DNA from: an uncultured Clostridia bacterium
GTDB taxonomy: Bacteria > Bacillota > Peptococcia > Peptococcales > Peptococcaceae
DNA: 58,590 nucleotides
Assembly: GCA_944391285.1 (NCBI GenBank)
Contig: CALXSY010000011.1
Coordinates: 1-58,590, forward strand
Reading direction: 5' to 3'
The notes below the pieces were generated by a model that was not told where the DNA came from, made no database searches, and saw nothing but the letters and a program-made list of their open reading frames with translations. How positions within the stretch are numbered: the stretch's first letter is position 1; each line of letters opens with the position of its first letter. Positions 1,629 to 4,113 of this stretch are shown here, piece after piece. The translations under genes were made by a program, and so were the position numbers.

Positions 1629-2465
1629 ATGAATTTTACGAAAATGGAAGGCTTGGGCAATGATTTTATCATGCTCAACGGCTTAAAAGAAAATATTCCG
1701 TCGGATTTGGCGGCTTTCAGCCAAAAGTATTGTGACCGGCATTTTGGTATCGGTGCCGACGGTGTAATTGTAATTTGGCAGTCGGATATTGCCGATATTA
1801 AAATGCAGATCATCAACAGCGACGGTTCGGAAGCAGAGATGTGCGGCAACGGGATTCGCTGCTTTGCTAAATATCTGTATGACCAAAAAATTATAGAAAA
1901 GAAAAAGATGACCGTGGAAACCTTAGCCGGCATCATCATTCCGGAGATTATAACCGACGAAAATGATCAGGTGCTTGCTGTCGAGGTTGATATGGGTGAG
2001 CCGATTTTAAAAGGTGAAATGATTCCTACCGTCTTTCAGACGGAACAGGTAGTTAATCAGCCTATCAAGATTGGCGGGCGGGAGTTTTATATAACCGCCG
2101 TCAGCATGGGCAATCCTCACTGCGTAGTTTTCACCGATGATTTAACGGATGAAAATTTGCAGAAATGGGGACCCATGATAGAGCGCTCCGAATATTTCCC
2201 CAAAAAAACCAATGTAGAGTTTGTCAAAGTATTAAACGAGCATGAAGCGCAAATGCGGGTTTGGGAAAGGGGTGCAGCAGTAACCTTAGCCTGCGGCACC
2301 GGAGCCTGTGCGACTTTAACAGCCGGCATATTGAATAAAAAATTTAATAAAGAAATTACCTTGCACTTGGACGGCGGCGATTTGTTGTTGAGATTTAATG
2401 ATAACGGTCATGTTTTTATGCGCGGTCCGGCAAAAACGGTATTCGAAGGGTGGATTGAGGCATAA
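1629..2465 (+). CDS. dapF: Diaminopimelate epimerase
   Basis: Converts LL- to meso-diaminopimelate in the cytoplasm, the last step before meso-DAP is used for lysine and peptidoglycan. The 278-residue length is normal. The N-terminus MNFTKMEGLGNDFI is classic. Both catalytic cysteines are present: Cys72 in EMCGNGIRC and Cys222 in LACGTGACATL, together with the VSMGNPHCV segment. A GGGAGGC ribosome site precedes ATG 1629. The stop codon overlaps the zapA start (TAATG), so the two genes are translationally coupled. This pairs meso-DAP supply with a cell division factor. Confidence 0.97.
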   Translation: MNFTKMEGLGNDFIMLNGLKENIPSDLAAFSQKYCDRHFGIGADGVIVIWQSDIADIKMQIINSDGSEAEMCGNGIRCFAKYLYDQKIIEKKKMTVETLAGIIIPEIITDENDQVLAVEVDMGEPILKGEMIPTVFQTEQVVNQPIKIGGREFYITAVSMGNPHCVVFTDDLTDENLQKWGPMIERSEYFPKKTNVEFVKVLNEHEAQMRVWERGAAVTLACGTGACATLTAGILNKKFNKEITLHLDGGDLLLRFNDNGHVFMRGPAKTVFEGWIEA

Positions 2466-2734
2466 TGGATCAGCAATCAGACAAGACAGCGGAAAAAAAC
2501 AAAGTCACAGTAAATATCTACGGTTCTAATTATACCATGCGCACCGCTTATACCGATGAGCAGGTAGAAAAAATTGTTGATTACTTAAACCAAAAAATGC
2601 AGGAAGCAGGAGCAAACCAAAGCCGGCTTAATTATAAAGACGTGGCGGTTTTGGCGGCTTTAAACATTACTGATGAATTGCTAAGTGTTAAAGAAGATTA
2701 TAAGCAGCTTTTGGAGATTATCAATGAAAATTAA
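2465..2734 (+). CDS. zapA: Cell division protein ZapA
   Basis: A small 89-residue cytoplasmic protein matching the ZapA family, which binds FtsZ and bundles its filaments at the division ring. The family pattern is visible: VTVNIYGSNYTMRTAYTDEQ (residues 15-34), EKIVDYLNQKMQEA, then a C-terminal coiled-coil helix with KDVAVLAALNITDELL. The ATG overlaps the dapF stop by one base. No terminator follows, but a separate promoter seems to drive the next gene. Other small coiled-coil proteins are possible, but the motif order fits ZapA well. Confidence 0.88.
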   Translation: MDQQSDKTAEKNKVTVNIYGSNYTMRTAYTDEQVEKIVDYLNQKMQEAGANQSRLNYKDVAVLAALNITDELLSVKEDYKQLLEIINEN

Positions 2735-2761: not shown

Positions 2762-2791
2762 TTGGTAATTTGTCTAAAGAGGTAGTATAAT
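2762..2791 (+). promoter_or_regulatory. Promoter of the GCL-like gene
   Basis: -35 TTGGTA (2762-2767), an 18-bp spacer and -10 TATAAT (2786-2791) are followed by an AGAGGAG ribosome site and ATG 2830. Confidence 0.55.
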
Positions 2792-2829
2792 AAGCTTATA
2801 TTGAAAAAAAGAAAGAGGAGATAAAACTT

Positions 2830-4062
2830 ATGCTTCAAGACCAAATAGTTTCTCAATTACGCAAATATGAAGTGCCTTATGAAAAATTCGTTATGGGTGC
2901 AAAATTTCAGCATTTGCTTTTGCATCAAGATTTAACGGCAGTAAGCTATGATGAAGAAAAAGGCATTGCCGATTTCTTGGAATACCTCATGCGCACCAAT
3001 GATTGGGAGGGCATTTATGAGGGCGATTATATTATCGGTGCTAAAAAGGATAAGATGACGATCATGTTGAAATTGGGCGGACAAATCGAATGGGCTATGG
3101 CTCCTACTGCTCGCTTGCAGGAAGTAGACCGTGCTTATTTGGATTTTATCCAAAGCATCATGTCCGAATTATCCTCCCGAGGGCAGATTTTGATTTCCGT
3201 AGGTGCTCAGCCTAAAACTGCCGCTAAAGATATTCAAGTAGTGCCGATGGCATTAAATGAAGCTTTGCTGGCAAGCTTAAAAGATGATGAGGCAGCGACC
3301 GAGCTTCTTAAAACAGCGGCTAAGAGCGTTATCACCCTTTCCTATGCTCACAGCGATGATTTCGAGAAAAAATTAAACGTAGTGCAATTAATTTCTCCGG
3401 TTTTGGCGGCTATTTTTGACAATGTGCCGTTAAGAGCCGCAGCAGAAGTTACAGAGCCTTGTGCGAACCAAGGATTGATCAACAAAGCTAAATCCCAGCT
3501 TTTCAGAGAAGCCAGAGCAGTAGCCAAAGACAGCTTTAAATACCAAGATTATGCTAACTATGCTGCCAATATGCCGGTAGTAGCAGTAGCTGCCGGCGAA
3601 GGCTTAGTCGCTAAAGACGGTTTGGCTGTCAGTGCTTACGAGGGCAAAGAGGTTTCTGAGGATGAAGCAGAGGCTGTTTTAAATATGGTGCAGAGTGATA
3701 TTAAAATCACTCCCGATGGTATCGAGATTTCCGTCGTAGATGCTTTGCCGTATCCTTTAAATATGGCTTATATGGCGCTTTTGAAAGGCATCTTCAGCCA
3801 TAAGGAGCATATGGACGATATCGTTGATTCCTTTAAAGAGCTGACCGAGATCCAGCTGATGGAATTAAAAAGAGCTGTCTGCAACGAAGGCTTAGAGGCT
3901 AAGTTTGGCGAAGGCACACTCTTAGATTATGCTAAGGATTTGTATTTCATGGTTATGCCGACCATGGAGCCTTTGGAACAGCATTATATCCAGCCTTTGG
4001 ATATGGTTTTATTTAAAGGAGCTATTCCCAAAAAGGTATTGGCGCGTCAATTAATGAAATAA
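2830..4062 (+). CDS. Glutamate-cysteine ligase (GCS2-type) homologue, probably inactive
   Basis: The 410-residue cytoplasmic protein follows, along its whole length, the clostridial GCS2-type gamma-glutamylcysteine synthetase as I remember that family. Matching segments are YEGDYIIGAKKDK (63-75), GGQIEWAMAP (83-92), QILISVGAQPKT (119-130), ISPVLAAIFDN (188-198) and DALPYPLNMAYMALLKG (304-320). The residues that bind metal and substrate are replaced. The family GxExEH motif is GAKFQH (K25, Q27), LEPG is LKLG (K81), the EIRxxDA arginine is Ser301, and the central His/Thr-Ala-Ser loop is not recognisable. The reading frame is intact with good codon use and its own promoter, so it is a maintained protein rather than a decaying gene. 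Its function is unknown; a binding or regulatory role is possible. Confidence 0.7.
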   Translation: MLQDQIVSQLRKYEVPYEKFVMGAKFQHLLLHQDLTAVSYDEEKGIADFLEYLMRTNDWEGIYEGDYIIGAKKDKMTIMLKLGGQIEWAMAPTARLQEVDRAYLDFIQSIMSELSSRGQILISVGAQPKTAAKDIQVVPMALNEALLASLKDDEAATELLKTAAKSVITLSYAHSDDFEKKLNVVQLISPVLAAIFDNVPLRAAAEVTEPCANQGLINKAKSQLFREARAVAKDSFKYQDYANYAANMPVVAVAAGEGLVAKDGLAVSAYEGKEVSEDEAEAVLNMVQSDIKITPDGIEISVVDALPYPLNMAYMALLKGIFSHKEHMDDIVDSFKELTEIQLMELKRAVCNEGLEAKFGEGTLLDYAKDLYFMVMPTMEPLEQHYIQPLDMVLFKGAIPKKVLARQLMK

Positions 4063-4065
4063 ACT

Positions 4066-4103
4066 AAAACTCGAATCCATTTCAAAGGGATTCGAGTTTT
4101 TTT
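4066..4103. terminator. Bidirectional terminator between convergent genes
   Basis: The stem AAAACTCGAATCC / GGATTCGAGTTTT with an 8-9 nt loop, A-rich on the left and T-rich on the right, separates the GCL-like gene from the convergent PadR unit. Confidence 0.9.
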
Positions 4104-4113
4104 AGGTGAAAAA

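Follow-up and report, generated by a model that had tools for sequence, protein, structure and literature searches.

Genes and features of the locus

The window analyzed here is a stretch of 58,590 nucleotides from an uncultured Clostridia bacterium (contig CALXSY010000011.1). It carries, in the same orientation, the diaminopimelate epimerase gene dapF, the cell-division gene zapA, and a gene for a homologue of plant-type glutamate-cysteine ligase (GCL) that has lost its catalytic residues, here referred to as pseudo-GCS2 (Table 1). The latter frame opens with ATG and holds no internal stops; it is preceded by a ribosome-binding site and followed by a Rho-independent terminator (centroid -16.9 kcal/mol, MFE z-score -4.8). 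A first-pass annotation of the sequence had also assigned the gene a promoter of its own. The promoter-like sequence exists, but the region around it holds 5 such sites versus 4.2 +/- 2.1 in shuffled sequence, which is not above chance, and a separate promoter is therefore unproven.

Table 1. Coordinates of the genes, signals, and former active-site motifs discussed in the text (positions in the window; residues in the numbering of the window protein)
Feature	Position	Strand	Remarks
dapF (diaminopimelate epimerase)	1629..2465	+	overlaps zapA start by 1 nt; adjacent in 10/11 genomes
zapA (cell-division protein ZapA)	2465..2734	+	directly upstream of pseudo-GCS2, 95 nt gap; adjacency in 11/11 genomes
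Promoter-like TTGGTA-18-TATAAT	2762..2791	+	10/12 consensus match
Shine-Dalgarno AGGAG	2816..2820	+	ribosome-binding site of pseudo-GCS2
pseudo-GCS2	2830..4062	+	410 aa; plant-type glutamate-cysteine ligase homologue without catalytic residues
Former strand-1 motif GxExEH (Mg2+/ATP)	2896..2913	+	residues 23-28, GAKFQH; GxSFGH in most orthologues
Former LEPGxQxE motif	3067..3090	+	residues 80-87, LKLGGQIE; E81 and P82 lost, Q85 and E87 kept
Former PKxRYxxMxxY...G.YAHxMMK segment	3244..3312	+	residues 139-161; K140, R142, Y143, H157, M159, M160 lost; one Gly deleted
Former RxxIWxxxDxxR loop	3466..3501	+	residues 213-224; 4/4 invariant residues lost
Former strand-6 motif ExRxxD	3724..3741	+	residues 299-304, EISVVD; Arg lost, Glu and Asp kept
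C-terminal block	3895..4059	+	residues 356-410; highest conservation of any segment in the family, lowest in canonical enzymes
Rho-independent terminator	4066..4107	+	13-bp stem and T run, directly 3' of pseudo-GCS2

Kinship with the GCS2 family along the whole length of the protein, which had been proposed from the letters alone, was borne out by profile searches: the Pfam GCS2 profile matched with 29 bits (cut-off 21 bits; E 9e-7), and TIGR01436, the profile of plant-type GCL, covered residues 3-378 (E 2e-26) with a score of 92 bits that lies far below the equivalog cut-off of 463, as do the scores of all intact homologues found in the phylum. In the PDB, the sequence matched the plant GCLs 9ufc, 6gmo, and 2gwc (E 2e-17 for 9ufc to 4e-14). 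An AlphaFold2 model was built from a four-sequence alignment (mean pLDDT 57, pTM 0.58) and compared to known structures with Foldseek, whose score draws on sequence as well as structure; with this model of moderate quality, plant GCL 2gwc was the best match (E 4.5e-16), followed by the carboxylate-amine ligase YbdK (1r8g, E 3.5e-6) and, more weakly, by PafA and glutamine synthetases. A control model of the intact homologue L020 was no better (pLDDT 53); modest model quality alone is therefore no sign that the fold of the window protein is broken. By homology the window protein is a member of the GCS2 family, and its fold, in a model of only modest pTM, is GCS2/glutamine-synthetase-like.

Loss of the active site in the window protein

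The residue comparison used an alignment of 43 homologues drawn from genomes at three levels, i.e., the family, the order, and the phylum to which the window belongs; losses in the window protein were scored against 28 canonical homologues, and invariant columns were counted in 18 canonical sequences of other families. Of the residues that do not vary among the 28 canonical homologues, the window protein has changed 14, namely, E25 to K, E27 to Q, E81 to K, P82 to L, R142 to L, Y143 to N, G153 to a gap, R213 to N, W217 to I, D221 to K, R224 to L, F288 to Q, R292 to K, and R301 to S (window numbering). The 18 sequences of other families have 31 invariant positions, and the window protein also departs from canonical invariants at M146 (L), M159 (L), M160 (L), D171 (S), and Y323 (S), in addition to the loss of H157 (T in the window) and of one glycine. 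Retained residues include G23, Q85, E87, K181, Y241, M286, E299, and D304. The motif readings made earlier, i.e., GAKFQH and LKLG in place of the acidic motifs and a serine for the arginine in EIS, each proved correct in the alignment. The central His loop had been described as gone; one glycine, the histidine, and both methionines are indeed lost, but the segment still aligns.

According to Iyer and colleagues, the catalytic set of the superfamily comprises GhExE in strand 1, acidic residues in strands 2 and 3, a polar pair in strand 4, Ex[RK]xxD in strand 6, and two arginines near strand 5 (PMC2588565), and every one of these motif classes is affected in the window protein. The possibility that the catalytic residues are present at shifted positions was examined across the 43 homologues, and none reappears. 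Because the catalytic Glu/Arg/Trp/His set is missing, the window protein is predicted to be inactive, unlike plant-type GCL, with which it shares full-length homology and the best fold match; judged from these substitutions, it is very unlikely to make gamma-glutamylcysteine. It likewise differs from YbdK, which has the same fold and for which activity is reported, as far as the citation of its structure paper in PMC2588565 conveys.

Fixation of the losses in the family

Eleven orthologues, distributed over five genera, were found in the taxonomic family of the window, and nearly all catalytic residues are missing in all of them; the other members are 38-46% identical to the window protein. 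The losses first read in one protein are thus fixed across the family. E25, E27, E81, R142, R213, and W217 are absent in 11 of 11, and most of the 14 canonical invariants are changed in every member. In place of GhExE, strand 1 reads GAKFQ in the window and GxSFG, GxCFG, or GxAFG in the other 10 orthologues. With strands assigned by alignment, E81 is lost in all 11 and E87 kept in nine, and at the strand-4 polar pair ([HD]x[NH]), represented in these homologues by Q167, most of the family carries V. In strand 6, the arginine of Ex[RK]xxD (R301) is S in the window and H, S, or A in most orthologues, with R remaining in two of the 11. As to the two conserved arginines of strand 5 and the preceding loop, R213 and R224 are lost in 11 and 10 members, respectively, and R292 is replaced by K or T in seven; which of these three are the two named ones is assigned by alignment only. 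Some replacements are common to the family (S25, G27, K142) and others are scattered, e.g., position 217, Trp in every canonical enzyme, is occupied by seven different residues among the 11. The gene is absent from two genomes of the family, G001 (87% complete) and G009 (82% complete); since zapA and dapF could not be found in these incomplete genomes either, the absence is most simply explained by missing contigs. One contig scan gave three loci, two of which were copies of those in G002 and G005.

The pattern of losses also bears on the suggestion that the protein senses glutamate, cysteine, or ATP. A ligand sensor would still bind a gamma-glutamyl compound, glutamate, cysteine, or a nucleotide and signal to a partner encoded in the operon, and the persistence of the fold and of G23, Q85, E87, E299, and D304, together with the binding of amino acids by members of this fold, is consistent with such a role. 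Set against this, the lost residues belong to the classes that make the Mg2+-ATP, phosphate, and substrate contacts in the superfamily (PMC2588565), and both substrate-loop arginines are gone in nearly all family members. Sensing is therefore weakened and not favored, and we judge it unlikely.

Selection and the present location of constraint

Selection was estimated as NG86 dN/dS, trusted only for pairs with dS below about 0.9. The closest pairs gave values of about 0.1 for pseudo-GCS2 (0.10 for G006-G010, 0.09-0.10 for G007-G011, 0.11 for G006-G008, and 0.13-0.14 for G008-G010), similar to the 0.05-0.11 of dapF and zapA in the same genomes, and the clean reading frame of the window extends to all 11 orthologues, with zero internal stops. 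Such dN/dS values are incompatible with a dying gene. An inactive relic awaiting deletion would account for the loss of both the catalytic residues and the partner gene (see below), and a short-frame GCS copy does exist in another genome (G308), but the selection data contradict it, as do open frames in 11 genomes of five genera down to 38% identity and the presence of a ribosome-binding site, a terminator, and a conserved gene linkage; it is highly improbable. The earlier view of a maintained pseudoenzyme rather than a decaying gene agrees with losses fixed family-wide under strong purifying selection. Enzyme homology, fixed catalytic loss, and purifying selection are found together in this gene, which classes it as a pseudoenzyme whose inactivity and non-catalytic function are predicted.

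Measured as column entropy, the conservation of residues 356-410 exceeds that in the canonical enzymes by 1.54 bits, the largest gain along the protein (equaled by 0.7% of circular shifts), and residues 121-300, where most of the lost residues were located, show the smallest gain. Between genera of the family, this C-terminal block is the top segment with 58% identity, versus 26%, the lowest, between canonical families. Most of the residues that have become invariant are located toward one end of the protein or the other. Conservation has thus moved off the former active site to the C-terminal helical block, and this block and the zapA linkage are the signal of retained function.

This distribution weighs on the idea of a repurposed enzyme, in which the old ligase site is gone and the pocket has acquired a new, ATP-independent activity based on H28, Q85, E87, E299, and D304. 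Each of the five is retained by 9 to 11 of the 11 family members, and the glutamine synthetase/GCS superfamily has changed its reaction before, as described for PafA versus Dop (PMC7947786, PMC8599861). A new active site is, however, not what the conservation profile suggests, because the gain is least at 121-300, the former location of most canonical invariants, and polar residues have not formed a new invariant cluster in that region. We consider this alternative rather unlikely; residual or new chemistry may nevertheless come from the former active-site positions that are still conserved, i.e., Q85, E87, E299, D304, K181, and Y241.

Loss of the partner gene and the pathway

Canonical loci carry, next after the GCS2 gene, a second gene (about 440 aa) whose product has a circularly permuted ATP-grasp domain (PF14403, E 2e-8). 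This ATP-grasp domain is adjacent or fused at 21 of the 25 canonical loci examined; two of the other four lie at contig ends and two have no ATP-grasp nearby. The single fusion, at L110:1367-4024 (minus strand, G283), is one ORF of 886 aa in which an intact GCS2 ligase is joined to the circularly permuted ATP-grasp, and it supports a joint two-step pathway. Two further loci in the wider set have altered GCS2 genes. At L106:1763-2560 (G308), a GCS2 homologue with a short frame of 266 aa matches profile positions 6-225 only; it comes from an unrelated family and may be truncated. At L115:2405-3682 (G422), a GCS2 gene beside an open-frame ATP-grasp gene has one in-frame TAG within the match, which may reflect either the onset of pseudogenization or a mistake in the assembly.

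Within the order of the window, the ATP-grasp gene was found only in G017 and G018, and the GCS is intact in both; in G018 each of the two genes is located at a contig break. The related genomes G014 and G015, both of which have damaged GCS copies, lack the ATP-grasp gene, and it was found in none of the 13 searched genomes of the window's family. The genome of the window gave no further GCS2 match, and a GCS1-type ligase was found in none of the genomes of the order. With no ATP-grasp partner, no other GCS2, and no GCS1 type, the two-step gamma-glutamyl peptide pathway is, within the reach of these searches, absent.

These absences speak against two readings in which the protein would still serve glutamate-cysteine ligation. 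That it remains a working ligase with substitute residues could be argued from its being the sole GCS2 homologue in the genome and from the persistence of E87, E299, and D304; this is highly improbable given that E25, E27, E81, R142, R213, W217, and R301 are lost or non-equivalently replaced, that no compensating pattern appears among the orthologues, and that the partner enzyme is absent. Dead enzyme copies commonly end up as regulatory subunits of an active paralogue, comparable to GCLM or the prozymes, but no active paralogue was found (one GCS2 match in the genome, no GCS1 type in the order), which leaves this the most improbable reading of all.

History of the damaged copies in the order

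In the phylogenetic tree, the 15 sequences of the order form one clade among the cassette members (support 100/100), with the window's family as a clade inside it (100/100). The damaged copy of G014 is sister to the intact copy of G017 (96/92), and the copy of G015 is sister to the window's family (96/82) on a long branch. In G014, the GCS gene adjoins a YhcN/YlaJ-like lipoprotein gene, which in G017 lies 3' of the cassette, and the intervening ATP-grasp gene is gone; G015 has the same arrangement and a shortened protein (360-aa frame). This sporulation lipoprotein gene, assigned by PF09580 as tested on the G014 copy, stands beside GCS in G017, G014, and G015 (L072, L073, and L075), with or without ATP-grasp.

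The G014 protein lacks E25, Q85, E87, R142, and W217 and retains E27, E81, R213, R224, and R301. The loss patterns are complementary, i.e., the window's family kept Q85/E87 and lost what G014 kept, nearly the opposite. A tree computed without the catalytic columns needs two losses; a single damaged clade of the family, G015, and G014 has a lower likelihood and is not rejected (AU p 0.13). Together, the complementary patterns and the tree favor separate losses, and the damage in G014 likely arose independently of that in the window's family.

Linkage to zapA

In each of the 11 family genomes with pseudo-GCS2, the next gene upstream is zapA, in the same orientation, and dapF precedes zapA in 10 of them; in the remaining genome (G004), no dapF was found and zapA abuts or overlaps the pseudo-GCS2 gene. 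The genomes G003, G004, and G005, which represent separate genera, have no other neighbor in common with the window within the retrieved stretches, so the zapA linkage is not part of general synteny. In related families zapA is located elsewhere, and the gene ahead of it there reads, by eye from the translations, as what we take to be pheT. The gap between zapA and pseudo-GCS2 measures 68-150 nt in most genomes; because such gaps allow a separate promoter, shared transcription could be incidental. Directly 3' of pseudo-GCS2 in G012 (L071:2168-5848) lies an ORF of 1226 aa whose start looks Cas12a-like by eye, followed by a Cas4-like ORF.

Discussion

Taken as a whole, the best explanation is a fixed pseudoenzyme whose pathway is gone and which acts as a non-catalytic, zapA-linked binding protein or scaffold, and we hold this to be moderately probable. 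Its two parts differ in strength: the fixed pseudoenzyme is highly probable from the alignment and the selection estimates, and the zapA-linked scaffold is proposed tentatively. The ancestor would have been the first enzyme of a two-gene cassette for a gamma-glutamyl (glutathione-type) peptide, in which the gene of a circularly permuted ATP-grasp ligase came after that of the GCS2 ligase. On the branch that led to the window's family, both the ATP-grasp partner and the GCS2 active site would have been lost, in either order, and the GCS gene would have come to sit behind zapA and stayed there under purifying selection. The present protein may be a folded binding protein, scaffold, or adaptor that acts without catalysis in a dapF-zapA operon and contacts its partner through the conserved C-terminal helical block (residues about 356-410); the first candidate partner would be ZapA or another division or envelope protein. 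The repurposed enzyme and the ligand sensor remain as rivals, whereas the selection data, the lost residues, and the lack of a paralogue largely exclude the relic, the active ligase, and the prozyme-type subunit.

Under a more specific and very unlikely variant, the dead GCS2 fold would bind the gamma-D-glutamyl-meso-diaminopimelate of peptidoglycan precursors or fragments and report the DapF-derived supply of wall precursors to the division ring via ZapA. If true, this would be a division regulator that evolved from a glutathione enzyme, with ancestors that handled gamma-glutamyl compounds.

Pseudoenzymes are already known as a kind. Lengsin, a glutamine-synthetase homologue of the eye lens, is reported to be inactive and was recruited to a non-catalytic role within the same broad superfamily; it belongs to a different family than pseudo-GCS2, is an animal protein, and is lens-specific. 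In the literature searched, nothing specific was found on a GCS2-family pseudoenzyme or on the GCS2 and ATP-grasp cassette, nor on a cell-division operon that contains a GCS2 dead throughout a family; the closest relatives that have been described are active enzymes. The parent group is the Bacillota cassette of GCS2 and ATP-grasp (L072 in G017; L020 in a Tissierellaceae MAG; the fused L110), whose members retain the active site and, in most cases, the partner, whereas the window's family has neither.

For annotation, the locus carries a warning, as profiles can label such genes glutamate-cysteine ligase though very likely no gamma-glutamylcysteine is made. Pseudo-GCS2 also marks an uncharacterized conserved protein in a cell-division operon. 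Finally, one order offers several stages side by side, namely, the intact enzyme with its partner (G017, G018), damaged copies that have no partner but are still near the ancestral neighbors (G014, G015), and, in 11 genomes, a fully dead protein under strong selection that is encoded behind zapA, and comparison of these stages makes it testable what an enzyme of glutathione synthesis does after catalysis ends.
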